Shown here: in pieces, positions 7,994-55,657 of the stretch
Numbering within the stretch: the first letter of the stretch is position 1
Layout: each line of letters opens with the position of its first letter
NCBI RefSeq assembly: GCF_019599045.1
Contig: NZ_CP080623.1
Location: forward strand, 1,386,501-1,450,500
Reading direction: 5' to 3'
Origin: Roseovarius sp. SCSIO 43702
GTDB lineage: Bacteria; Pseudomonadota; Alphaproteobacteria; Rhodobacterales; Rhodobacteraceae
Length of the DNA: 64,000 nt
Made by a program: the position numbers and the translations under genes
The notes under the pieces: model-generated
What the model was told of the DNA's origin: nothing
Database searches by the model: none
The model's input: the letters and a program-made list of their open reading frames with translations, nothing else

Positions 7994-8739
7994 CGAATGC
8001 CTTTCTCGACTTCAATCACCGGGAAAAGCAGGCAGGCTTTGCCAATGAAGTAAACACGCTGATCGACCGGGCGCTTGTTGCTGAAAATGCTCAGCGCCCC
8101 CAGCGTGATTACCTCGGCGGCAGTCGCCTCGGCGATGCCTGCGCGCGGCGCCTCCAATACGAGTATCTCAAGACACCCAAGGATGAGGGGGCCGGTTTCT
8201 CCGGTCGGTCGCTTCGCATCTTTGCGCTCGGGCATGTCCTCGAGGACCTCGTGATCGACTGGCTTCGCAAGGCGGGTTTCGATCTCAGGACGCGCAACCG
8301 TCATGGAAACCAGTTCGGGTTTTCGGCCGCGGGCGGGCGGGTCCGGGGACATGCGGATGGTGTGGTCGTGGCCGCGCCAAACGGCATGGCAGTGCCCGCG
8401 CTCTGGGAGTGCAAATCGGCCAACGCCAAGAACTGGCGAGCCATGTCCAAGAACGGCGTCGCAAAAGCCAAGCCAATCTATGCAACCCAGATTGCGCTCT
8501 ATCAGGCCTATCTCGGTCTGACCGAGACGCCGGCACTTTTTACCGCCGTGAACAAGGACACCTGCGAGGTCTGGCACGAGCTCGTGCCGTTCAACGGTGC
8601 GCTCGCTCAAGCTGTCAGCGACAAAGCGGTGCAAATCCTGCGCGCTTGCGATGCCGGTGAACAGCTTCCCCGACATACGACGGATCCAGAGCATTTCGAA
8701 TGCAGGTTCTGCGCCTGGAAGGAGAGGTGCTGGGTATGA
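7990..8739 (+). CDS. PD-(D/E)XK nuclease, RecB/Cas4-like with four-cysteine cluster
   Basis: 249 aa. Nuclease motifs: GHADGVVV supplies the aspartate and LWECKSAN the E-x-K pair. An N-terminal cysteine (RLGDACARRL) plus C-terminal Cys238, Cys241 and Cys247 (CRFCAWKERC) make the four-cysteine pattern that holds an iron-sulfur cluster in Cas4/AddB-type nucleases. Expected activity is exonuclease on DNA ends, feeding single strands to the annealase system. The start is TTG at 7990, overlapping the previous stop, with AGGAGGT six bases before it. The homologue in element 2 is 47781-48554. Confidence 0.85.
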   Translation: MTNAFLDFNHREKQAGFANEVNTLIDRALVAENAQRPQRDYLGGSRLGDACARRLQYEYLKTPKDEGAGFSGRSLRIFALGHVLEDLVIDWLRKAGFDLRTRNRHGNQFGFSAAGGRVRGHADGVVVAAPNGMAVPALWECKSANAKNWRAMSKNGVAKAKPIYATQIALYQAYLGLTETPALFTAVNKDTCEVWHELVPFNGALAQAVSDKAVQILRACDAGEQLPRHTTDPEHFECRFCAWKERCWV

Positions 8740-11084
8740 CGGAGCAACAGATGTCCGCCTTCTCCGCAGATCCCAGTCCGAACGACGAGATGATCGCGAT
8801 CTATGCCGACGTAGTGTTCGGCTACTGCGATTATCTGGTGCCGGTAAGATCTCTTGCTGAGAAGGGTGCGGGAGATGCGCCGCCACACACGCCATTTCTC
8901 CCGGCTGATGCCGAGCTTGCAGCGAAGCTCGCGCATCAGGCGGACTGGGCGGCACAGAGCGGCATGGCGCTCTTTGTCGTGCCGGGAACCGTCGCGGAAG
9001 CAGGGGCTGCTCGCGCCGAGCATGTGGTCCAGACGCAGGTGGTTTTAGTTGATCTCGATCACGGCGATATCGCGGCCAAACGCGCCCATCTTGTCCATAA
9101 TCTTGGCACACCCACCCTCGAGGTGGCCTCTGGCGGGATCACACCACAGGGGCAGGACAAGCTGCATCTCTATTGGCGGCTGACGGAACCTGCCGAGGAC
9201 GAGGACGTTGCACGGGTCTGCCGCGCCCGACAGCTGATTGCGGCCAAGGTTGGCGGCGATCCGGCGTTCAAATCGGCCCACCAGCCAATTCGCGTGGCCG
9301 GGTCGGTACATGCCAAGACGGGCGTCAAGCGGCTGGTCGCGATCCGCGATCACAAACCTGTTGACTATGACCTCGCCGAACTGACGGAAGCCATCTTCGC
9401 CATGCCGCCCATGGACGGTGCGGAGCCGAACGGGCTCGACTTCAACACGGCATCGATGGATGGGGGGACGGTTCCGGAGCTTTTCGCCAAACCCATCCGT
9501 GAGGGTGGCGTTGATGGGACCACACGCTTTGACGCGCTGTCCCGCGTGATCGGATACTGGATCCGTCGTTGCCGTGAAGGCCATGTTACGCCCGCAGAGG
9601 CCTGGGATGAAATCGTCTCCTACAACGATGCCCGTATTGATCCGCCCTGGCCAGAAGCGCGGCTTCAACAGGAGGCTGAGCGCCTCTGGCGTCGCGACCA
9701 GGCCCGTAACGGTGAGATCGAGGGTGAAGGTGAGGGTGATACTGGCAGCGGGGATGGCGGTACCAGCCCTGTTCGGTTTTCCGAAGACGCCTTGGCGGCC
9801 AACTTCGCGGATCAGCATAGTGAATCCTGGCGCTTTGTCGCCGCATGGGGACAATGGCTGACTTGGACGACACGGGTCTGGAAACGCGAAGATACACTGC
9901 AGGCGTTTGATCTAGCGCGTCAGGTTTGCCGTGCGGCAGCCATCCGTTCGCCCTCAGCGCGGGTCAGAACGAAGCTGTCGACGGCCTCGACCGTGGCGGC
10001 TGTAGAAAGGCTTGCCCGCAGCGATCGGCGGCATGCCACCACCACAGAGGTCTGGGACCGCGATCCGTGGTTGCTGAATACGCCAGACGGCGTGCTGAAC
10101 CTCCGCAGCGGGCAGTCGCAGCCTCATGATCCGGCACTTTACATGACAAAAGTCGCGGCTGCTGTGGCCAAGGGTGACTGCCCTGTCTGGCTCGGTTTTC
10201 TCGACACGGTGACCGGCGGTGATGCCGAATTGCAGTCTTATCTGAAACGGATGGCCGGGTATTGTCTGACCGGCGTCACCAGCGAGCATGCATTGTTTTT
10301 CCTCTACGGCACTGGCGCCAACGGCAAATCCGTTTTCGCCAACACGCTGGTCGAGATCCTCGGAGATTACGCCACCGTGGCGCCGATGGACATGTTCATG
10401 GCCAGCCATGGAGATCGTCACCCGACCGATATGGCAGGCCTGAGAGGCGCACGCATCGTCACCTCCATCGAGACCGAGCAAGGCAGCCGTTGGGCTGAAA
10501 GCAAACTCAAGGCGCTGACCGGCGGAGACAAGATTACTGCTCGTTTCATGCGCCAGGATTTCTTCGAGTTCATCCCGCAATTCAAACTGCTGATCGTCGG
10601 CAATCACAAGCCCTCCATCCGTAATGTGGACGAAGCCATGAAACGCCGCCTGCATATGGTGCCGTTTACCGTAACCATCCCCGCGGAGAAACGCGACAAG
10701 CGCTTACCTGACCGGCTGTTGGCCGAGCGGGATGGCATCCTCGCCTGGGCGCTGCAGGGCTGCCTCGAATGGCAAAAGCATGGGCTCCGCCCCCCGCCGG
10801 CCGTCATGGCGGCGACGGAGGATTACTTCGAGGCCGAAGACGCCATCGGTCGCTGGATCGATGAACGCTGCTCCATGGGACCAAGTCAGAACGCCAGCAC
10901 CGCCACGATGTTTGCGGACTGGAAGGCGTGGGCCGAGGCGAATGGCGAGTTCGCCGGCTCGGTCAAGCGGTTCTCGGAATCCCTGATCGTCCGGGGGTTC
11001 GAGCGTCACAATACCCGCGCGGCCAAGGGATTTCAGGGCATCGCCCTCGACGACAACAATTCTGACCTTTTTCCGGGAGAGTAG
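8736..11084 (+). CDS. P4/D5-type primase-helicase (phage/plasmid primase)
   Basis: 782 aa. The N-terminal ~300 residues are a primase-like part (VVLVDLDHGD, LEVASGG, HLYWRLTEP, FKSAHQPIRVAGSVH). An acidic Gly-rich linker (EGEGEGDTGSGDGG) follows, then the D5_N and SF3 helicase domain: LFFLYGTGANGKSVFANTL is Walker A, IVTSIETEQGSRW is the B region, and FKLLIVGNHKPSIRN is motif C with sensor asparagine. Start at the ATG at 8736 (ATGA overlap with the nuclease stop, GGAGAGG nine bases upstream). Initiates element DNA replication, probably at the adjacent repeat array. Element 2 uses an unrelated Toprim-type protein here. Confidence 0.93.
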   Translation: MTEQQMSAFSADPSPNDEMIAIYADVVFGYCDYLVPVRSLAEKGAGDAPPHTPFLPADAELAAKLAHQADWAAQSGMALFVVPGTVAEAGAARAEHVVQTQVVLVDLDHGDIAAKRAHLVHNLGTPTLEVASGGITPQGQDKLHLYWRLTEPAEDEDVARVCRARQLIAAKVGGDPAFKSAHQPIRVAGSVHAKTGVKRLVAIRDHKPVDYDLAELTEAIFAMPPMDGAEPNGLDFNTASMDGGTVPELFAKPIREGGVDGTTRFDALSRVIGYWIRRCREGHVTPAEAWDEIVSYNDARIDPPWPEARLQQEAERLWRRDQARNGEIEGEGEGDTGSGDGGTSPVRFSEDALAANFADQHSESWRFVAAWGQWLTWTTRVWKREDTLQAFDLARQVCRAAAIRSPSARVRTKLSTASTVAAVERLARSDRRHATTTEVWDRDPWLLNTPDGVLNLRSGQSQPHDPALYMTKVAAAVAKGDCPVWLGFLDTVTGGDAELQSYLKRMAGYCLTGVTSEHALFFLYGTGANGKSVFANTLVEILGDYATVAPMDMFMASHGDRHPTDMAGLRGARIVTSIETEQGSRWAESKLKALTGGDKITARFMRQDFFEFIPQFKLLIVGNHKPSIRNVDEAMKRRLHMVPFTVTIPAEKRDKRLPDRLLAERDGILAWALQGCLEWQKHGLRPPPAVMAATEDYFEAEDAIGRWIDERCSMGPSQNASTATMFADWKAWAEANGEFAGSVKRFSESLIVRGFERHNTRAAKGFQGIALDDNNSDLFPGE

Positions 11085-11088
11085 AAAA

Positions 11089-11718
11089 ATGCCAATGAAT
11101 TCAGACAGTGTGACGGATGTGACGGATCATACCTATATGACCGTTACGCGCGCGCACATGCGCGCCTGTGGAGCGGATAAGGAACTATCCGTCACACCCG
11201 TCACACCCGTCACTGACCCTCTGGTGCCGATGCAGGAGGGTGGTGGATTGCGCCAGTGCATCCTCGCGCTCGATCTCGGCACCTCGACCGGCTGGGCGGT
11301 GCATGGCCATGACGGTCTGATCACCAGCGGCACCGTGTCCTTCCGTCCCGGCCGTTTCGACGGCGGCGGCATGCGCTTCCTGCGGTTCACCAACTGGATG
11401 ACCGAATTGGACCGGCTGTCCGGGCCCATCGCCGCCATCTGGTTCGAAGAAGTCCGGCGGCATGCAGGCACCGACGCGGCCCATGTCTATGGAGGCCTCA
11501 TGGCCACGCTCACCGCATGGGCCGAGATGCGCGGCGTTCCCTACGAGGGCGTGCCCGTCGGCACCATCAAGCGGTTTGCCACCGGAAAAGGCAACGCGCC
11601 GAAGCAGGCAATGATCGACGCTGCGCGCGCCCGGGGTTTCAGCCCCGCCGACGACAACGAGGCCGACGCCATCGCCATTCTGCTCTGGGCTCTGGAAACC
11701 CGGGGAGGTGTCGCATGA
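11089..11718 (+). CDS. RuvC-like Holliday junction resolvase (phage type)
   Basis: RNase H-fold resolvase. First acidic motif ILALDLGTSTGWAV, middle acidic residue in IWFEEVRRHAGTDAAHVYGG, then VPVGTIKRFATGKGNA and the C-terminal acidic motif DDNEADAIAILLWA. It resolves branched DNA made during replication or packaging. Two starts are possible: ATG at 11089, making 209 aa with a repeat-encoded N-terminus (VTDVTD...VTPVTP), or TTG at 11248 with an excellent AGGAGGG seven bases upstream, making 156 aa. The second would leave the repeat array outside the protein, and element 2's homologue lacks that N-terminus. Confidence 0.85.
   Translation: MPMNSDSVTDVTDHTYMTVTRAHMRACGADKELSVTPVTPVTDPLVPMQEGGGLRQCILALDLGTSTGWAVHGHDGLITSGTVSFRPGRFDGGGMRFLRFTNWMTELDRLSGPIAAIWFEEVRRHAGTDAAHVYGGLMATLTAWAEMRGVPYEGVPVGTIKRFATGKGNAPKQAMIDAARARGFSPADDNEADAIAILLWALETRGGVA
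11109..11214. repeat. Origin-like array: 9-mers around an alternating Pu/Py tract (element 1)
   Basis: Two tandem copies of TGTGACGGA lie at 11109-11117 and 11118-11126. A 21-base perfect purine-pyrimidine alternation is at 11145-11165 and includes arms GCGCGCA and TGCGCGC around CA. Three tandem inverted copies follow: TCCGTCACA (11188), CCCGTCACA (11197) and CCCGTCACT (11206). It sits directly after the primase gene. The same geometry recurs at 52461-52720 with a different 9-mer. Best reading: replication origin or initiator-binding iterons. I infer this from position and architecture. Confidence 0.65.
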
Positions 11719-12863: not shown

Positions 12864-14192
12864 ATGAAACAAAGGAAATCATCCGTGTCCGATCGCGAAC
12901 TTGCCATTGAGTACCGTGCGCTCGATAGTCTCGTGCCCTATGCGCGCAATGCTCGCACCCACTCCGAGGCACAGATTGCCGAGATCGCCGGCTCGATCCG
13001 CGAATTCGGGTTCACCAACCCGGTGTTGATTTCTGAGGATGACACGTTGATTGCGGGCCACGGCCGGGTGCTGGCCGCGCGACTGCTCGGGATGGAGACC
13101 GTGCCGAGCATTGTGCTGACCGGCCTGACGGAGAGCCAGCGCCGGGCGCTGGTGCTGGCTGACAACCGCATCGCGCTGAATGCCGGGTGGGACGAAAGCC
13201 TGTTGGCGCTGGAAATCAGCGATCTGAAAGAGGCAGGGTATGATCTTGGGATCATGGGGTTCGAGGACGGTGAGCTCGACCGGCTTTTGTTGGGGGCGGA
13301 GGACGAAGAAGGATCAACCGCGCCGAGCGTGATCCCGGAGCCGCCGCGCAATCCAGTGTCACAATTGGGCGACCTTTGGGTGCTTGGGGAGCATCGGCTG
13401 CTCTGTGGTGACAGCACAAGCTCCGATGACGTGCGGCGTCTGATGAATGGCGAGCGGGCCATCCTGTTCGCAACCGATCCGCCGTATCTGGTGGATTACG
13501 ACGGCTCCAACCACCCGACACGCAACAAAGACTGGTCGCAGTCTTACGGCACCACATGGGACGACAGCAGCCAGGGCGCGGAGCTTTACGACGGGTTCAT
13601 TGCCGCCGCGGTGGCCGAGGCGATCACCGAGGATGCCGCCTGGTATTGCTGGCACGCCTCGCGCCGCCAGGCGATGCTGGAGGAATGCTGGGAGAAAGCC
13701 GGTGCCTTCGTGCATCAGCAGATCATCTGGGTGAAAGACCGCGGCGTGCTGACCCGCTCGCATTACCTGTGGAAGCACGAGCCTTGTCTGATGGGCTGGC
13801 GTCGCCCGAACCGACCACCAAAGGTCGCAGACGAAACGCTGGCCTCGACCTGGGAGATGCCGAGCTTCACCAAGGAGGAGCGCCCGGACCATCCGACGCC
13901 GAAACCGCTCGACGCATTCGGGATCCCAATGCGCCAGCATGTGGCGCGTGGTGGGCTCTGCTATGAGCCCTTCGCAGGCTCCGGCTCGCAGATCATGGCG
14001 GGCGAGGCCAATGGCCGACGCGTCTTCGCGATGGAGATCAGCCCCGCCTATGTCGACGTCGCCGTGGAACGCTGGCAGGCGGAGACGGGGCGCGAGGCGA
14101 TCCTCGACGGGGACGGTCGGAACTTTGCCGACGTGAAGGCCGAGCGGCTGAGCGAGACCCCGGCCGCGGCCGAGAGTGTCGCCGCGGCATGA
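12864..14192 (+). CDS. ParB-domain DNA methyltransferase (N4/N6 type)
   Basis: 442 aa. Residues ~10-100 are a ParB/Srx-like domain (LVPYARNARTHSEAQIAEIA, IAGHGRVLAARLLG, RRALVLADNRIALNAGW). Then comes a beta-class methyltransferase: TDPPYLVDYDG is the catalytic DPPY motif, followed by the target region and HPTPKPLDAF, and FAGSGSQIMAGE is the SAM-binding motif. Probably modifies element DNA against host restriction or tunes late transcription. The homologue at 54287-55657 is very close. The moron cassette is inserted immediately after its stop. Confidence 0.93.
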   Translation: MKQRKSSVSDRELAIEYRALDSLVPYARNARTHSEAQIAEIAGSIREFGFTNPVLISEDDTLIAGHGRVLAARLLGMETVPSIVLTGLTESQRRALVLADNRIALNAGWDESLLALEISDLKEAGYDLGIMGFEDGELDRLLLGAEDEEGSTAPSVIPEPPRNPVSQLGDLWVLGEHRLLCGDSTSSDDVRRLMNGERAILFATDPPYLVDYDGSNHPTRNKDWSQSYGTTWDDSSQGAELYDGFIAAAVAEAITEDAAWYCWHASRRQAMLEECWEKAGAFVHQQIIWVKDRGVLTRSHYLWKHEPCLMGWRRPNRPPKVADETLASTWEMPSFTKEERPDHPTPKPLDAFGIPMRQHVARGGLCYEPFAGSGSQIMAGEANGRRVFAMEISPAYVDVAVERWQAETGREAILDGDGRNFADVKAERLSETPAAAESVAAA

Positions 14193-48554: not shown

Positions 48555-49834
48555 CCGTCATCCTTTCTGATACCCAAGGCCGCGCCATCGCCGCGATCCG
48601 CGACTGGTACGAGACGCGGCGGCACGACCAGCAGATCTTTCGACTGTTCGGCTATGCCGGGACCGGCAAGACCACGATCACCGCCATGGCGATCGAGGCT
48701 TTGGGGCTTGAGCCGATGACCCCCGGCGCGCCGGGCGGCGTGCTCTTCGGCGCCTTCACCGGCAAGGCCGCGCTCGTCATGACGCGAAAGGGCACGCCCG
48801 CGCAGACCATCCACAGTCTGATCTACCGCGTCTCCGAGGCGACGCCGGAGGAGATCGAGCGGGTGACCGAGGATCTGGCGGCGCTCCGGCGCGAGCTGCC
48901 GCGCATGGGGCCGGCCGAGCGAGACTTCGCCATGACGCGGATCGCCCAGCTCGAGATGCGGCTCGAGGACATCCACCAGCCCAAGTTCCTGATCAACGAG
49001 CAGTCGATCCTGCGCGACGCGGAACTGCTGGTCCTCGACGAGGTGTCGATGGTGGGCGAGGACCTAGGGCGCGACCTGCTCGCCTTCGGCAAGCCGATCC
49101 TGGTGCTGGGCGATCCGGGGCAGTTGCCACCCGTCAAGAGTGCCGGCTTCTTCACCGAGGCCGAGCCGGACGTGATGCTGACCGAGGTGCACCGGCAGGC
49201 CGAGGACAGCGCCATCCTGCGGCTTGCTACGCTGGCGCGGCAGGGCGCGCCGATCCCCAAGGGCGCGCATGACGACCATGTCTGGAAGATGTCGCGCTTT
49301 GATGTCGGCCCGGCGCAGATGCTGCGCGGCGGCCAGGTGCTTTGCGGCACCAACGCGACGCGGCGCTGGCTGAACACCGCCATGAAGCGCGCGGCCGGGT
49401 TCGACGCCGACTATCCGACAGGCCACGGCGAGAAGATCATCTGCCTCAAGAACCGCCATGATCTCGGGCTGATCAACGGCATGTTCCTGACGCTGAGCGA
49501 TGTGCGCCAGGACCCTGACGACGCCTTCGCCTTCAGCGCCATGGTCGAGACCGAGGACGGCGAGACCATCGCCGGGCGGCAGAGCTTCTGGCGCGGCGAA
49601 TACGCCGACCACATCGCCTACGACCCCGAGCGCGGGCGCCGCGAATGGCAGATCAAGCGCGGCCTGATCGAGAGCAGCTGGGGCTACGCCATCACCTGCC
49701 ACAAGGCGCAGGGCTCGCAATGGGAGAACGTGGTCGTCTTCGACGATGGCTTCGGCCGCTCGGCGGCCGACAGGAACCGCTGGCTCTACACCGCGATCAC
49801 GCGGGCCGAGCGGGGGCTGGTGATCCTTGCTTGA
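48551..49834 (+). CDS. RecD-like SF1 DNA helicase
   Basis: 427 aa. Walker A FGYAGTGKTTITAMAIEAL near residue 36, FTGKAALVM as motif Ia, LVLDEVSMVGEDLG as Walker B, VLGDPGQLPPVKSAGFF as motif III, and C-terminal YAITCHKAQGSQWENVVVFD with LYTAITRAERGLVI as motifs V-VI. UvrD_C_2-type RecD/Dda-like helicase. It probably replaces the SF2 helicase of element 1 in replication or recombination. Start at the ATGA overlap. Confidence 0.93.
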   Translation: MTVILSDTQGRAIAAIRDWYETRRHDQQIFRLFGYAGTGKTTITAMAIEALGLEPMTPGAPGGVLFGAFTGKAALVMTRKGTPAQTIHSLIYRVSEATPEEIERVTEDLAALRRELPRMGPAERDFAMTRIAQLEMRLEDIHQPKFLINEQSILRDAELLVLDEVSMVGEDLGRDLLAFGKPILVLGDPGQLPPVKSAGFFTEAEPDVMLTEVHRQAEDSAILRLATLARQGAPIPKGAHDDHVWKMSRFDVGPAQMLRGGQVLCGTNATRRWLNTAMKRAAGFDADYPTGHGEKIICLKNRHDLGLINGMFLTLSDVRQDPDDAFAFSAMVETEDGETIAGRQSFWRGEYADHIAYDPERGRREWQIKRGLIESSWGYAITCHKAQGSQWENVVVFDDGFGRSAADRNRWLYTAITRAERGLVILA

Positions 49835-52754
49835 CCTCAACGACACCCTCCCGCCTGGCCTTGAGGCGCCGCGTTACGATCTCGACCTGATCGTCGAGCG
49901 CCTGCGCGAGACTGCCGCGCACTGGGTGCCCGACCTCTTCCCGCGCGGCCGCCGCTCCGGCGACGAGTGGCGCCTCGCCAATATCCGGGGCGACGCGCCC
50001 CGGAACACCGGTTCCTGCGTCATCACGCTGCGCGGCGCGCATGCCGGCGACTGGATCGATTTCGACGGCAACCAGGGCGGCGGGCCTATCAGCGCAATCA
50101 AGGAGGCGACCGGGCTCGACGGCCGTGCGTTGATCGCGCGGGCCGCCGAGATCGCCGGCGTCACGCCCGGCGCGCCCGAGCGGCGCGCACCAGCGACACC
50201 GCCGACGCCGAAGCGCGACGCCAGACAGGATATCGCGCATATTCTGTCCAGAGCCGAGCCGATCGCGGGCACGCCCGCCGCGGCCTATCTCGCAGGTCGT
50301 GCCCTTACGGCGCCTGCCGAAGCCGATCTGCTGTTTCATCCCGATCTGGCGCATTGGGCGACGAAGACGGGCTATGCCGCGCTGCTCGGGCAGGTGCGCG
50401 ATCGCAGCGGCGAGGTGATCGGGCTGCACCGCACCTACATCGTTGAAGACGACAACGAAGTGCGCAAGGCGCCGGTCTCGAACCCCAAGATGATGCTCGG
50501 GCGCATCGCCGGCGGTGCCGTGCGGCTCGCACCGCTCGGGACCGGTGACCGGCTGGCGCTGTCAGAAGGTATCGAGACCGGGCTCGCGGTCATGACCGCC
50601 TGTCCCGATCTGCCGGTCTGGGCGACGCTTTCCACCTCCGGCCTCGAACAGATCGATCTCCCGCCCGCGGCGCAGCGGGTGCTGATCCTAGCCGATCATG
50701 ATGCATCCGGGGCAGGACTGCGGGCCGCCGAAGCCTGCGCCCGCCGCCTGCGCGCGCAAGGGCTTGATGTCGCCATCGCCATACCGCCCGAAGAAGGCCA
50801 GGACTTTAATGACCTGCTGCTCAGCGACGGTCCCGCTGCCGTCGCGGCGCTGATCGCCGATGCGGAGGCCAGCACCGAGGCCGATACCGTCCTTCAGACC
50901 GGCCAGCATCGTCCGCTCAACTATCAGGGCTCAGGCGAGACCGTTCCGACCTTGCGGGCCGACGAGGGTGATCTGGGGCGCGCGGTGGCACAGGTCTGGA
51001 GCGTACTCATGGCCTCGAACCGCACGCCATGGGTGTTTCGCTTCGCCGGGCTGCCTACATGGGTCGTCCCGGACGATGAGGGCCGCCCGGTGGCTACCAT
51101 GCTCAATGAGGAACGCCTGCGCCACATGCTGGCGCGGCTCGCCCACTGGGTCCGCGAGAATGCCAAGGGTGAACTGCTGCCGGCGCCGCCCCCCTTGCCG
51201 GTGGTCAAGTCGGTCCTCGCGACGCCCGACCCGGCACTGCCGGTGCTGACAGGCATCGTCAACACGCCGGTCTTCGGCCGCTCCGGCACGCTGATCACGA
51301 CGCCCGGCTACCACCCTGATGCTCGGCTGCTCTACATTCCGGCACCGGGGTTCAGCGTTCCGAACATCCCGGCCAAGCCCTCACAGGCGGAGATCGACGC
51401 GGCGCGCACCCTGATCTGCGAGGACCTCTTTGGCGATTTCCCGTTCACCAGCGAGGCCGAGCGCGCCCATGTGGTGGCGCTCCTGCTGCTCGGCTTCCTG
51501 CGCGGCATGATCGACGGGCCGACACCGCTGCACCTCATCGAAAAGCCGACGCCCGGCACCGGAGCCACGCTGATGGTCGATGCCGTGGCCACGATACTCA
51601 CCGGCACGGGTGCCAGCGTGATGACCGAGGGGCGCGATGACGAGGAATGGCGCAAGCGCGTCACCGCCAAGCTGCGCCAGATCCCTTCGATCATCCTGAT
51701 CGACAACCTGCGCGCCAAGCTTGACAGCTCGGCCGTCGCGGCCGCGCTGACGGCTCCCTTCTGGGAGGATCGTGTTCTGGGCGCCTCGGAAATGACCCGG
51801 CTGCCGATCCGCTGTCTCTGGATCGCGACCGGCAACAATCCCGAGTTCTCCAATGAGATGGCTCGCCGACTGGTGCGCATTCGGCTCGATCCTCACGAGG
51901 AGCGCCCCTGGCAGCGTACCGGCTTCCGCCATCCCGATCTGATGACATGGGTGCGTGCTAACCGCCCCCGGCTGGTCGTCGCCTGCCTGACGCTCTGTCA
52001 GGCCTGGGTCGCCGCAGGAAAGCCGCGGGGCAGCAAGACCATCGGCTCCTATGAGAACTGGGCCCAAGTGATCGGCGGCGTGCTCGAGACCGCCGGCATT
52101 CCCGGCTTCCTCGGCAATCTCGAGGACATGATGGAAGCCTCCGACAGCGAGGGCGCGGGCTGGAGCGCCTTCATCGCCGCCTGGTGGGACCGGTTCGGGA
52201 CCGCCGAGGTGGGCGCGGCCGACCTCTTCGACGTGGCCCTGTTCTGCGATCCTGCGCCCCCCATTACCGGCCACACGGACCGCGCGCAGAAGACCAGCTT
52301 CGGGATCGCCATCAAGAAGATGCGGGATCGCGTGTTCAAGGTGAGCGATCTGACGCTCAGGCTGGCGCAGGCGGGCACGTTTCGGAGGGCGGTCAAATGG
52401 CAGCTGAAGGTCTCGGAGCAACCGTCGCGTCCGCAATCGGGCTCGCGAGGGTCTGATACGTGTGAACCTCCGAGCGCGGGTGTGAACCTCCAAAACCGAG
52501 GTTCACACGATCAAACCTTTGATCGGACTGGCAAATGTGAACCTTGTGAACCTTGTGAACCTCTCCCAACCCTTACGCACGCGCGCGCACACGCACATGC
52601 GAAGGATGATGCCGGAAAAGGTTCACAAGGTTCGCGAGGTTCACAAAGCCCTGCGAATTCAGAGCCTTGTCAGTGTGAACCTCCTTGTGAACCTCCTGCG
52701 GCAGGTTCCCGAGGTTCACCCGTCCCCGATTGGCTGAGGGAGCTCGATCCATGA
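49827..52754 (+). CDS. Toprim-type primase fused to ATPase-like domain (replication protein)
   Basis: 975 aa. Starts at TTG 49827, overlapping the helicase stop. Residues ~1-110 are an N-terminal DNA-binding/zinc-free part (GDWIDFDGNQGGGPISAIKE). Toprim is near 245-330, with LSEGIETGLAV and LILADHDASGAGLRAA as its catalytic acidic residues. From ~570 an ATPase-like section follows (GTGATLMVDAVATILTGTGA, IILIDNLRAKLDSSAVAAAL, LWIATGNNPEFSNEMARR) with a weak Walker A. The last ~100 codons are made of the 9-mer repeat array and encode repetitive CEPCEPCEP and GSQGSRGSQ runs. Takes the place of the P4-type primase of element 1. Confidence 0.88.
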   Translation: MLDLNDTLPPGLEAPRYDLDLIVERLRETAAHWVPDLFPRGRRSGDEWRLANIRGDAPRNTGSCVITLRGAHAGDWIDFDGNQGGGPISAIKEATGLDGRALIARAAEIAGVTPGAPERRAPATPPTPKRDARQDIAHILSRAEPIAGTPAAAYLAGRALTAPAEADLLFHPDLAHWATKTGYAALLGQVRDRSGEVIGLHRTYIVEDDNEVRKAPVSNPKMMLGRIAGGAVRLAPLGTGDRLALSEGIETGLAVMTACPDLPVWATLSTSGLEQIDLPPAAQRVLILADHDASGAGLRAAEACARRLRAQGLDVAIAIPPEEGQDFNDLLLSDGPAAVAALIADAEASTEADTVLQTGQHRPLNYQGSGETVPTLRADEGDLGRAVAQVWSVLMASNRTPWVFRFAGLPTWVVPDDEGRPVATMLNEERLRHMLARLAHWVRENAKGELLPAPPPLPVVKSVLATPDPALPVLTGIVNTPVFGRSGTLITTPGYHPDARLLYIPAPGFSVPNIPAKPSQAEIDAARTLICEDLFGDFPFTSEAERAHVVALLLLGFLRGMIDGPTPLHLIEKPTPGTGATLMVDAVATILTGTGASVMTEGRDDEEWRKRVTAKLRQIPSIILIDNLRAKLDSSAVAAALTAPFWEDRVLGASEMTRLPIRCLWIATGNNPEFSNEMARRLVRIRLDPHEERPWQRTGFRHPDLMTWVRANRPRLVVACLTLCQAWVAAGKPRGSKTIGSYENWAQVIGGVLETAGIPGFLGNLEDMMEASDSEGAGWSAFIAAWWDRFGTAEVGAADLFDVALFCDPAPPITGHTDRAQKTSFGIAIKKMRDRVFKVSDLTLRLAQAGTFRRAVKWQLKVSEQPSRPQSGSRGSDTCEPPSAGVNLQNRGSHDQTFDRTGKCEPCEPCEPLPTLTHARAHAHAKDDAGKGSQGSRGSQSPANSEPCQCEPPCEPPAAGSRGSPVPDWLRELDP
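52461..52720. repeat. Origin-like array: TGTGAACCT 9-mers around an alternating Pu/Py tract (element 2)
   Basis: Direct TGTGAACCT copies lie at 52461, 52481, 52536, 52545 and 52554 (the last three tandem), and at 52674 and 52686. Inverted AGGTTCACA copies lie at 52499, 52619 and 52637, with a degenerate one between the last two (52628) and two weaker ones at 52703 and 52712. Between the tandem blocks is a 28-base perfect purine-pyrimidine alternation (52574-52601). Lies within the 3' end of the primase gene. Same plan as 11109-11214 with a different word; a replication origin or initiator-binding array is inferred. Confidence 0.72.
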
Positions 52755-52810
52755 GCCCCGCACGCCCCGCCCATCACCCCATCGAGCACCAACCCGGAAA
52801 GGAGCCCATC

Positions 52811-53329
52811 ATGGCCCACGCATCTCTCAACCCGACCCCCATGAGCGCCCCGTTCCCTGGCGTGCCTGTCATCCTCGCCCTCGACCTCGGCACCACCACC
52901 GGGTGGGCGCTGCATGGCCATGACGGTCTGATCACGAGCGGCACCGTGTCGTTCCGCCCTGGTCGCTTCGACGGCGGTGGCATGCGGTATCTGAGGCTCA
53001 CAAACTGGCTGAGCGAGATTGACCGACTGTCCGGGCCGATCGAGGCCATCTGGTTTGAGGAAGTGCGCCGCCATGCCGGGACCGACGCGGCCCACGTCTA
53101 TGGCGGTCTGATGGCCACGCTGACCGCGTGGGCCGAGTTGCGTGGCGTGCCCTACGAGGGCGTGCCGGTCGGCACCATCAAGCGGTTCGCCACCGGAAAG
53201 GGCAACGCCAACAAGGACGCCATGATCGCCGCCACCCGGGACCGAGGGTTTAACCCCGTCGACGATAATGAGGCTGACGCGATCGCCATCCTGCTCTGGG
53301 CGATTGAAACCCGGGGAGGTGTCGCATGA
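52811..53329 (+). CDS. RuvC-like Holliday junction resolvase (element 2)
   Basis: 172 aa from the ATG at 52811, preferred for its AAAGGAG seven bases upstream; an ATG at 52751 overlaps the primase stop and would add 20 residues. Motifs: VILALDLGTTTGWALHGHDG, IWFEEVRRHAGTDAAHVYGG, VGTIKRFATGKGNANKDA and DDNEADAIAILLWAIE. Nearly identical core to the resolvase at 11089-11718, although the primases beside them are unrelated. Confidence 0.88.
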   Translation: MAHASLNPTPMSAPFPGVPVILALDLGTTTGWALHGHDGLITSGTVSFRPGRFDGGGMRYLRLTNWLSEIDRLSGPIEAIWFEEVRRHAGTDAAHVYGGLMATLTAWAELRGVPYEGVPVGTIKRFATGKGNANKDAMIAATRDRGFNPVDDNEADAIAILLWAIETRGGVA

Positions 53330-54286: not shown

Positions 54287-55657
54287 ATGAAACAAGGAAA
54301 CACAGCCGTGTCCGATTGCGAACTGGCCATTGAATACCGCGCGCTCGATGATCTCGTGCCCTATGCGCGCAACGCCCGCACGCATTCCGAGGCACAGCTT
54401 GCCGAGATCGCGGGCTCGATCCGGGAGTTCGGGTTCACCAACCCGGTGCTGATTGCGGAGGACGGCACGCTGATCGCGGGCCATGGCCGGGTGCTGGCGG
54501 CGCGCTTGCTTGGGATGGAGACCGTGCCGAGCATTGTGTTGATCGGCTTGTCCGAGAGCCAGCGCCGGGCGCTGGTGCTGGCGGATAACCGCATCGCGCT
54601 GAATGCCGGCTGGGATGAAAGCCTGCTGGCGCTGGAACTCAGCGATCTGAAAGAGGCCGGGTTCGATCTCGGGATCATGGGGTTCGAGGACGGCGAACTC
54701 GACCGGCTTCTGTCGGGGACGGACGAGGACGACGCCTCAACCGCGCCGAGCGTGATCCCGGAGCCGCCGCGCAATCCGGTCTCGCGCACGGGCGATCTCT
54801 GGGTGCTTGGGGACCATCGGCTGCTTTGCGGCGACAGCACAAGCGAGACGGATGTGCGCCGCCTTATGAACGGCGAACGGGCCATCCTGTTCGCGACAGA
54901 TCCGCCCTATCTGGTGGATTACGACGGCTCGAACCACCCGACACGCAACAAGGATTGGTCGCAGTCTTACGGCACCACATGGGACGATAGCAGCCAAGGC
55001 GCCGATCTCTATGACGGTTTCATCGCAGCGGCCGTGACCGAGGCCGTCACCGAGGACGCCGCCTGGTATTGCTGGCACGCCTCGCGCCGCCAAGCGATGC
55101 TCGAGGAATGCTGGGAGAAAGCCGGGGCCTTTGTCCATCAGCAGATCATCTGGGTAAAAGAGCGCGGGGTGCTGACCCGCTCGCACTATCTCTGGAGGCA
55201 CGAGCCCTGCCTGATGGGCTGGCGCCGCCCGAACCGACCGCCCAAGGTGGCCGATGAAACGCTGGCCTCGACCTGGGAGATGCCCAGCTTCACCAAGGAG
55301 GAGCGGCCGGACCATCCGACGCCGAAACCGCTGGATGCGTTCGGGATCCCGATGCGCCAGCATGTGGCGCGGGGCGGCCTCTGCTATGAGCCCTTCGCAG
55401 GCTCCGGCTCGCAGATCATGGCGGGCGAGGCCAACAACCGACGCGTGAATGCGATGGAGATCAGCCCGGCCTATATCGATGTCTGCATTGAGCGTTGGCA
55501 GGCTGAGACTGGGCGCGAGGCAATCCTCGAAGGCGATGGCCGGACCTTTGTCGAGGTGCAGGCGGAGCGGCTGGGGGACAGAAACGCGCCCGCCAAAATA
55601 ACGCAGGACAAGCCAGCCGCGCAGAAGCCCAGCCGCAAGCGGAAGGCCGCGGTATGA
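54287..55657 (+). CDS. ParB-domain DNA methyltransferase (element 2)
   Basis: 456 aa. Same layout as 12864-14192: ParB-like domain (LVPYARNARTHSEAQLAEIA, GHGRVLAARLLGMETVPSIV), catalytic TDPPYLVDYDGSNH, SAM motif CYEPFAGSGSQIMAGEAN. The C-terminal tail is different and longer (DKPAAQKPSRKRKAAV, basic). Its stop overlaps the next gene by four bases, which is the original junction before the cassette entered element 1. Confidence 0.93.
   Translation: MKQGNTAVSDCELAIEYRALDDLVPYARNARTHSEAQLAEIAGSIREFGFTNPVLIAEDGTLIAGHGRVLAARLLGMETVPSIVLIGLSESQRRALVLADNRIALNAGWDESLLALELSDLKEAGFDLGIMGFEDGELDRLLSGTDEDDASTAPSVIPEPPRNPVSRTGDLWVLGDHRLLCGDSTSETDVRRLMNGERAILFATDPPYLVDYDGSNHPTRNKDWSQSYGTTWDDSSQGADLYDGFIAAAVTEAVTEDAAWYCWHASRRQAMLEECWEKAGAFVHQQIIWVKERGVLTRSHYLWRHEPCLMGWRRPNRPPKVADETLASTWEMPSFTKEERPDHPTPKPLDAFGIPMRQHVARGGLCYEPFAGSGSQIMAGEANNRRVNAMEISPAYIDVCIERWQAETGREAILEGDGRTFVEVQAERLGDRNAPAKITQDKPAAQKPSRKRKAAV

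Follow-up and report, generated by a model that had tools for sequence, protein, structure and literature searches.

Replication origins built of short repeats (iterons) that an initiator protein reads lie beside the primase genes of several mobile elements. In phage P4, the winged helix of the alpha protein binds the origin repeats (PMC4234260). In the P4 record, crr is annotated immediately 3' of the alpha gene; it contains 8-bp repeats in direct and inverted pairs (repeat GGTGAACA). In phage-inducible chromosomal islands (PICIs), including the Staphylococcus aureus pathogenicity islands (SaPIs), genes for Primase and Rep, sometimes fused, are followed by the origin; behind pri-rep, which drives plasmid replication, lie two iteron sets flanking an AT-rich region, and four allelic Pri-Rep variants occur in E. 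coli islands (PMC6092414). RepA and the origin of the Vibrio PICI-like elements (PLEs) covary, function only as cognate pairs and are swapped as modules (PMC8263062). Here we describe a 64,000-nt stretch of the Roseovarius sp. SCSIO 43702 genome (hereafter the window) carrying two elements, in each of which the gene for a RuvC-like resolvase comes after that for a primase-helicase, with an array of 9-mer words between or across them. We are confident that these arrays are phage replication origins composed of initiator-binding words, and that they are read by the winged helix at the C-terminus of the adjoining (element 1, E1) or overlapping (element 2, E2) primase-helicase. Sequence covariation indicates that five residues of the E2 winged helix read its word letter by letter. 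The kind of origin is known, namely the initiator-iteron origin; what is new is an unusually legible variant.

The loci resemble alpha/crr of P4 in having a primase-helicase gene with repeats 3' of it. GGTGAACA has GTGAAC in common with the E2 word, and hhalign matches the helicase region of E1 to alpha (probability 94.6, E 6.7e-8); this alignment ends before the C-terminus, and no sequence relation between E1 and the alpha winged helix was detected. P4 has a second, remote ori, which like crr carries type 1 repeats, whereas neither 9-mer has an exact copy elsewhere in the window (exact matches were sought, and degenerate copies may occur). The crr repeats flanking a 35-bp gap point outwards, not inwards as here, and the longest alternation in crr is 7 nt. 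With the PICIs and SaPIs the loci share two sets of words around a centre behind the primase, here pointing inwards. The PICI centre is a putative melting region, whereas the centre here is a GC-rich alternation; PICIs are satellites, while the present elements have their own terminase, portal and head genes; and no residue code is described in the available part of PMC6092414. The PLE initiator is a RepA_N protein without predicted helicase or primase activity (PMC7145576), with semi-palindromic iterons of about 30 bp. An origin inside the initiator gene is also found in lambda O and in the Alphaproteobacterial RepC (PMC7466680; PMC3155836), but lambda has four iterons beside an AT-rich region (PMC7466680) and the RepC gene studied is without iterons, the last 39 residues of RepC being involved in incompatibility (PMC3155836). 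The iterons of geminiviruses and the iteron-related domain of their Rep are analogous to the E2 code, not of the same class. Rep is a rolling-circle protein of plant viruses and belongs to another family; a comparative study by Arguello-Astorga in 2001, cited in PMC12548392, reportedly, to go by its title, mapped Rep residues to iteron bases. Lambda iterons are longer, and all lie on one side. In literature searches, largely without subscription papers, neither the arrays nor the residue code were described in any of the listed titles and abstract openings.

Both elements are prophages, and each contains genes for a terminase, a portal and a major head protein. The first-pass annotation of the window had proposed that element 1 carries two direct 9-mers, a 21-nt purine-pyrimidine alternation and three inverted copies; all were located, although two of the inverted copies are imperfect (Table 1). 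The same order had been claimed for element 2. Direct copies of TGTGAACCT, an alternation and inverted copies do follow one another there, but the array is richer than noted, with an outer group on each side, so that forward (F) and inverted (R) copies run F F R, F F F, alternation, R R R, F F R. Exact forward copies start at 52461, 52481, 52536, 52545, 52554, 52674 and 52686 (n=7) and exact inverted ones at 52499, 52619 and 52637 (n=3), with imperfect inverted copies at 52628, 52703 and 52712. As had also been noted, the element 1 array falls within the resolvase reading frame when this is opened at its first ATG, and that of element 2 at the 3' end of the primase frame. In both prophages the copies point inwards onto the alternation, and the alternations of 21 and 28 nt are the two longest in the window (the next is 16 nt). 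Ahead of the GC-rich tract lies a short CCCTTACG stretch in element 2 or a CCTATA-like stretch in element 1. Taken alone, the element 1 array is unexceptional against chance, at least three copies of one 9-mer in both orientations being present in 17 of 981 sliding 260-bp windows, at six places of which two are the arrays; its significance rests upon conservation among relatives.

Related loci were fetched from viral contigs for E1 (best 80 of 114), E2 (best 80 of 156) and the resolvase (best 80 of 256), from genomes for E2 (best 80 of 87), and in a second viral-contig scan for E1 (best 80 of 435, mostly repeats of earlier contigs). An array was scored strictly, as an 8-mer with at least two forward and at least two inverted copies, and windows inside the same primase genes served as controls; 4 of 83 E1 and 3 of 80 E2 loci were left out as too short. 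Arrays were present in 77/77 E2 windows (controls 1/231) and 34/79 E1 windows (controls 0/236), and alternations of at least 14 nt in 68/77 (controls 2/231) and 69/79 (controls 0/236), respectively. The 9-mer arrays that the first-pass annotation proposed to seek at the primase-resolvase boundary of related prophages thus exist at the primase end, far above controls. The E2 core comprises three forward words, a spacer and three inverted words (103 loci), the spacer being 56 bp in 50 loci, 62 in 19, 54 in 9, 59 in 8 and of other lengths in 17. In the TGTGACGGA register the E1 spacer is 61 bp, close to these values, so that two primases without detectable C-terminal relation share nearly the same geometry. 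Loci anchored on the resolvase revealed three further replication proteins in the slot (Prim-Pol + PriCT_2 + DUF3987; AAA_25; DUF7146 + Toprim_3 + VapE-like), designated E3, E4 and E5 and associated with other words. Their statistics are weaker, with strict arrays in 11/23 unique loci for E3, 5/19 for E4, 10/12 for E5 and 10/10 for unassigned loci, against 2/183 controls.

Among named-phage records there are 67 matches to the E2 body and 1092 to the E1 primase, and six phages were inspected. The E1 relative AcaML1 has the full plan ahead of its RuvC-like gene, Yuna and GMA4 have arrays while the long tract is absent, and no array was seen in RpAliso, RcXuper or CcrRogue. The array of Mycobacterium phage Yuna (L436) consists of TCTGTGCC, +55 to +281 after the primase gene, and that of Gordonia phage GMA4 (L437) of GGCACCCG, +350 to +660, both words occurring in both orientations. 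The primases of these actinobacteriophages are distantly related, and no origin is annotated in the stretches inspected.

Among relatives of E2 the positions of the copies are nearly fixed and the word changes in all of them together (GTGAACCT, GGGAACCT, GGGGACCT, GTGAGGGT, GTGAATGT and others), one dominant word per locus being present in most copies. An initial set of 80 loci, the window included, gave a core in 79, of which 4 fitted no register; the remaining 75 comprised 64 unique loci. The final census covered 156 loci with key residues (115 unique bodies), 14 of them without a clear word, and the other 142 display 19 words on one layout. For the covariation analysis two of the 115 were dropped because of ambiguous register (GGGGAGGT), leaving 113 loci, with an effective number of about 40 at 90% body identity. 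Each of the five variable letters (w3, w5, w6, w7 and w8) has its own best-associated column out of 646, and all five columns lie within the winged helix, three at i, i+4 and i+8 of the recognition helix and two in the wing. The structure model likewise places residues 820, 824 and 828 on one helix, and 854 and 856 at the wing. At w3, T goes with Arg or Gln at 854 (47/48) and G with His (65/65); at w5, A accompanies Ala856 (89/89) and G accompanies Thr, Val or Ser (24/24). For the helix, w6 is A with Arg or Lys at 820 (80/80) and G with Gln, His or Asn (32/33), w7 is C with Thr824 (84/84) and another letter with Ile or Val (29/29), and w8 is C with a non-basic residue at 828 (63/63) and G or A with Lys or Arg (48/50).

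E1 appears to follow a parallel wing rule. As judged by eye, Ala before the wing Arg/Lys goes with A at w5, and Val or Thr in that position with G in 9 of 10 readable loci (L424 is the exception, and L062 was unreadable), as Ala856 goes with A and Thr, Val or Ser856 with G in E2. The two wings gave no profile match to each other.

The code was fixed in writing before the genome loci were fetched. Nine of the 80 lacked the C-terminus or the anchor (leaving 71), 22 had a residue outside the code (49), and 14 duplicated viral loci (35), duplicates being defined by identity of the last 230 residues only, so that closer relatives were kept. In 29 of these 35 new loci the predicted word was the sole most frequent among 48 candidates, whereas shuffled predictions averaged 4.5 and reached at most 13 in 20,000 shuffles; the correct predictions span eight different words. 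The misses were L247 (w8 mixed), L266 and L297 (same residues, different word), L288, L298 (where Arg828 behaves like Lys) and L300. That the word co-evolves with its primase, as first proposed, is strongly supported by these comparisons, in which single winged-helix residues were mapped, predictions made blind mostly held, and letters and residues changed together on the tree described below.

Since the primase tail appears to read the word, the array is very probably the replication start site of the prophage, and the P4 and PICI precedents argue for the same function. We envisage that winged helices dock onto the words in each core arm and that the arms, directed inwards across a spacer of mostly 54-62 bp with its alternating tract, would allow two helicase rings to assemble head to head. 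The spacer may absorb supercoiling or open, and the fused primase would then lay primers. Lying next to each other, reader and array would be inherited, and probably exchanged, as a single cassette; moving as one, the pair would stay matched when specificity switches.

It could be argued that the winged helix reads the array as an operator or autoregulatory site instead of an origin, as residue-letter covariation demonstrates reading but not its consequence. We consider this improbable, since the array lies behind the primase gene or at its 3' end, the arms point inwards with a spacer of 54, 56, 59 or 62 bp in 86 of 103 loci, and initiators that are linked to a helicase and have similar arrays, such as P4 alpha and PICI Pri-Rep, work at origins.

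Somewhat less probable still is a role in structure, the array forming a cruciform in DNA or a stem-loop in RNA whose arms change together to keep pairing. The arms are inverted repeats, and for pRN1 an origin of this kind was proposed, a stem-loop of about 100 bp 3' of the primase-helicase gene with conserved structure and non-conserved sequence (PMC4234260). Mirror partners do share changes slightly more often (32/283) than mismatched partners (18/299 and 7/308), but 251 of the 283 deviating mirror columns are uncompensated, which is far from conserved pairing. Forward copies on the same side agree with one another, which pairing does not need, and the letters follow residues of a protein domain. 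Base pairing was set aside on the compensation figure (32/283), and a known RNA family because the Rfam scan of the window returned no family at gathering score. Origins described as a stem-loop without sequence conservation, such as that of pRN1, might instead consist of inverted words read by a winged helix.

A further explanation, slightly less likely again, is that words and residues are associated through common descent of a few cassettes without any residue-level reading. The array sits beside its reader and could travel with it, and the effective number of loci at 90% body identity is about 40. Yet the letters combine in many ways, each following its own residue; the eight words predicted blind count against descent too, and when letter changes are placed on a primase-body tree, 63 of the 68 fall together with a change in the class of the residue assigned to that letter (the classes were defined with the data in view). 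Coincidences by class were 15/16 for w3, 11/11 for w5, 11/11 for w6, 15/16 for w7 and 11/14 for w8, and for raw residues 14/16, 11/11, 5/11, 15/16 and 11/14, respectively. For w3, w5, w7 and w8 the assigned residue ranks first with scores of 0.58-1.00, the best body column reaching 0.37-0.44. Different words occur in 32 unordered nearest-body pairs, for 16 of which body identity reaches 90% or more, and the code fixed earlier was right for both members at 43 of 57 differing letters. L246 and L120, for instance, have bodies that are 98.5% identical, and their words are GTGAACCT and GGGAACCT, respectively. Pairs of this kind suggest exchange of reader and array together, as one cassette.

Selection on a repeated peptide (CEPCEPCEP in E2, VTDVTD in E1) is hardly credible: the array lies in coding sequence in E2 and may do so in E1, but one forward copy in the window E2 array is out of frame with the other six, the inverted copies encode different peptides, and in AcaML1 the array falls between annotated genes. 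Peptide-level selection was rejected on frame and mixed orientation, which argue that it is the DNA that is kept.

Several observations weigh against origins read in this manner. The letter w6 is loose, A and G being mixed in several arrays; its raw sharing with residue 820 on the tree is just 5/11, the 11/11 requiring classes picked post hoc, residue 820 is outside the raw top five for w6, and the third element of this genome, of E2 type (His820), has mostly A at w6 where the code gives G. At 824 the choice between Ile and Val fails to tell T, G and A apart (Val with T in 6 loci and G in 8; Ile with T in 10, G in 1 and A in 4), residue 855 accounts for w3 nearly as well as 854 does, and residues 830, 809 and 825 track w8 closely behind 828. 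Among the six loci predicted wrongly in the blind test, L266/L297, L288 and L300 are genuine failures of the code, and the duplicate L285, excluded from the 35, contradicts it. The ATPase parts are of low confidence in both the E1 and E2 models. In E1 the word is less variable, and strict detection recovers the array in just 34 of the 79 windows; three lytic phages inspected with distant E2-helicase relatives (L438-L440) lack the array. The cumulative GC skew of the element 2 segment reaches its lowest point (52899) close to the array, that of the element 1 segment does not, and the skew is indecisive.

The loci L103, L104, L106, L107, L248-L250, L259 and L260 have arrays that mix GTGAACCT and GTGAGCCT, perhaps as intermediates of word change or through relaxed reading of w6. 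An E2 subgroup (L258, L312, L319 and L269; residues T/P-A-R..R-R-S) lies in another register outside the code, with GTGTGAGG in L258 and L319 and similar words in L269 and L312.

The first-pass annotation held that the primases beside the arrays are unrelated, which is borne out by their domains (D5_N + DUF5906 versus DUF7146 + Toprim_3) and by the lack of any relation between their C-terminal parts in profile comparison. Its conclusion that the DNA plan and not a protein is conserved holds in part only: the plan is common to both elements, but so are the RuvC-like neighbour and the modelled winged helix, which is predicted to end both primases with the array directly behind. From the models, the conserved unit looks like reader plus array.

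It had also been suggested that words diverge to avoid cross-talk between co-resident elements. A third slot with an E2-type primase and a RuvC-like gene lies outside the window (G000:C1:1320175-1323671, L351), and its array contains GGGAACCT plus some GGGAGCCT copies, giving three elements and three different words in this genome. Six genomes have two E2 modules, this one and five grouped by accession prefix (Elioraea L307 being scored with a de novo word). Four have a different word in each module, and in two the modules agree (Jannaschia seosinensis L244/L246 and the CAMFKI bin L266/L297), whereas by our own arithmetic about 9 in 10 random pairs drawn from the word frequencies would differ. 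Cross-talk avoidance is not supported, since two of the six carry one word twice. Escape from origin-directed nucleases is another possible driver of word change; such nucleases are documented for PLE satellites and may drive RepA-origin diversity there (PMC8263062).

We advance only tentatively, with slightly less than even conviction, a wider proposal: that one winged helix uses five residues to specify a five-letter word, which is rewritten at as many as a dozen sites when specificity changes, that the slot before the RuvC-like gene takes at least five replication proteins, each with its own reader and word, and that the identity of the origin resides in a cassette open to exchange, its switching perhaps being driven by origin-directed competitors and not by incompatibility. 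How an initiator and its many binding sites switch specificity together is a long-standing question, for which E2 offers a natural series of words. Where the word can be predicted from the protein, such prophage origins would become findable from sequence.

Table 1. Features of the two replication modules, in window coordinates
Feature	Position	Strand	Basis or remarks
Element 1 primase-helicase (E1), superfamily 3 type	8700..11084	+	Pfam D5_N + DUF5906
E1 C-terminal winged helix, probable reader	10836..11063	+	AlphaFold predicted local distance difference test (pLDDT) 66-91 by block, fragment residues 201-276
RuvC-like resolvase, element 1	11089..11718	+	PHROG phrog_159, E 1.4e-31; first ~45 codons overlap array if first ATG used
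Element 1 forward pair, TGTGACGGA	11109..11126	+	Exact at 11109 and 11118, 9-bp spacing
Element 1 array centre, perfect purine-pyrimidine alternation, 21 nt	11145..11165	.	Second longest in the window
Element 1 inverted triplet	11188..11214	-	11188 exact, 11197 1 mismatch, 11206 2 mismatches
Element 2 primase-helicase (E2)	49827..52754	+	Pfam DUF7146 + Toprim_3; C-terminal half without Pfam match
E2 C-terminal winged helix, putative reader of the word	52161..52427	+	Model, residue-letter covariation
E2 recognition helix	52278..52319	+	Residues 820, 824, 828 (codons 52281, 52293, 52305) pair with w6, w7, w8
E2 wing, residues 852-856	52377..52391	+	854 (codon 52383) pairs with w3, 856 (codon 52389) with w5
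Element 2 outer left group F, F, R of TGTGAACCT	52461..52507	.	
Element 2 core left, three tandem forward copies	52536..52562	+	
Element 2 core centre, perfect purine-pyrimidine alternation, 28 nt	52574..52601	.	
Element 2 core right, three tandem inverted copies, middle CGCGAACCT	52619..52645	-	
Element 2 outer right group F, F, then imperfect inverted copies	52674..52720	.	
RuvC-like resolvase, element 2	52730..53329	+	88% identical to element 1 protein, residues 56-209

In profile searches the E1 primase matched primases of known structure, viral ones among them (best E 1.9e-5). Foldseek returned no match at E <= 0.001 for the E1 or E2 model, probably because the ATPase parts are poorly modelled; the best match of the E1 model was to an RFX DNA-binding domain (E 0.016). 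The E2 C-terminal profile produced a single match among solved structures, at E 1. Searching found four short proteins resembling the E2 winged helix, which are probably fragments: the contigs of three are 553-1141 bases long and that of the fourth 6355. The last, P0003 (95 amino acids), resembles the E2 winged helix alone and may be a fragment or a stand-alone mimic.

Elsewhere in the genome there is a third RuvC-like copy, 82% identical to the element 1 protein over residues 44-209, and a more distant E1-like primase at G000:C1:2104060-2105406 on the minus strand (L358; 43% identity over residues 358-781). Between 5071 and 5400 of the window CGAAATTTC occurs twice in each orientation within 260 bp, perhaps as an operator near the element 1 early region. 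Behind the replication module of both prophages lies a gene for a ParB-like + DNA methylase protein (window 12864-14192 and 54287-55657).
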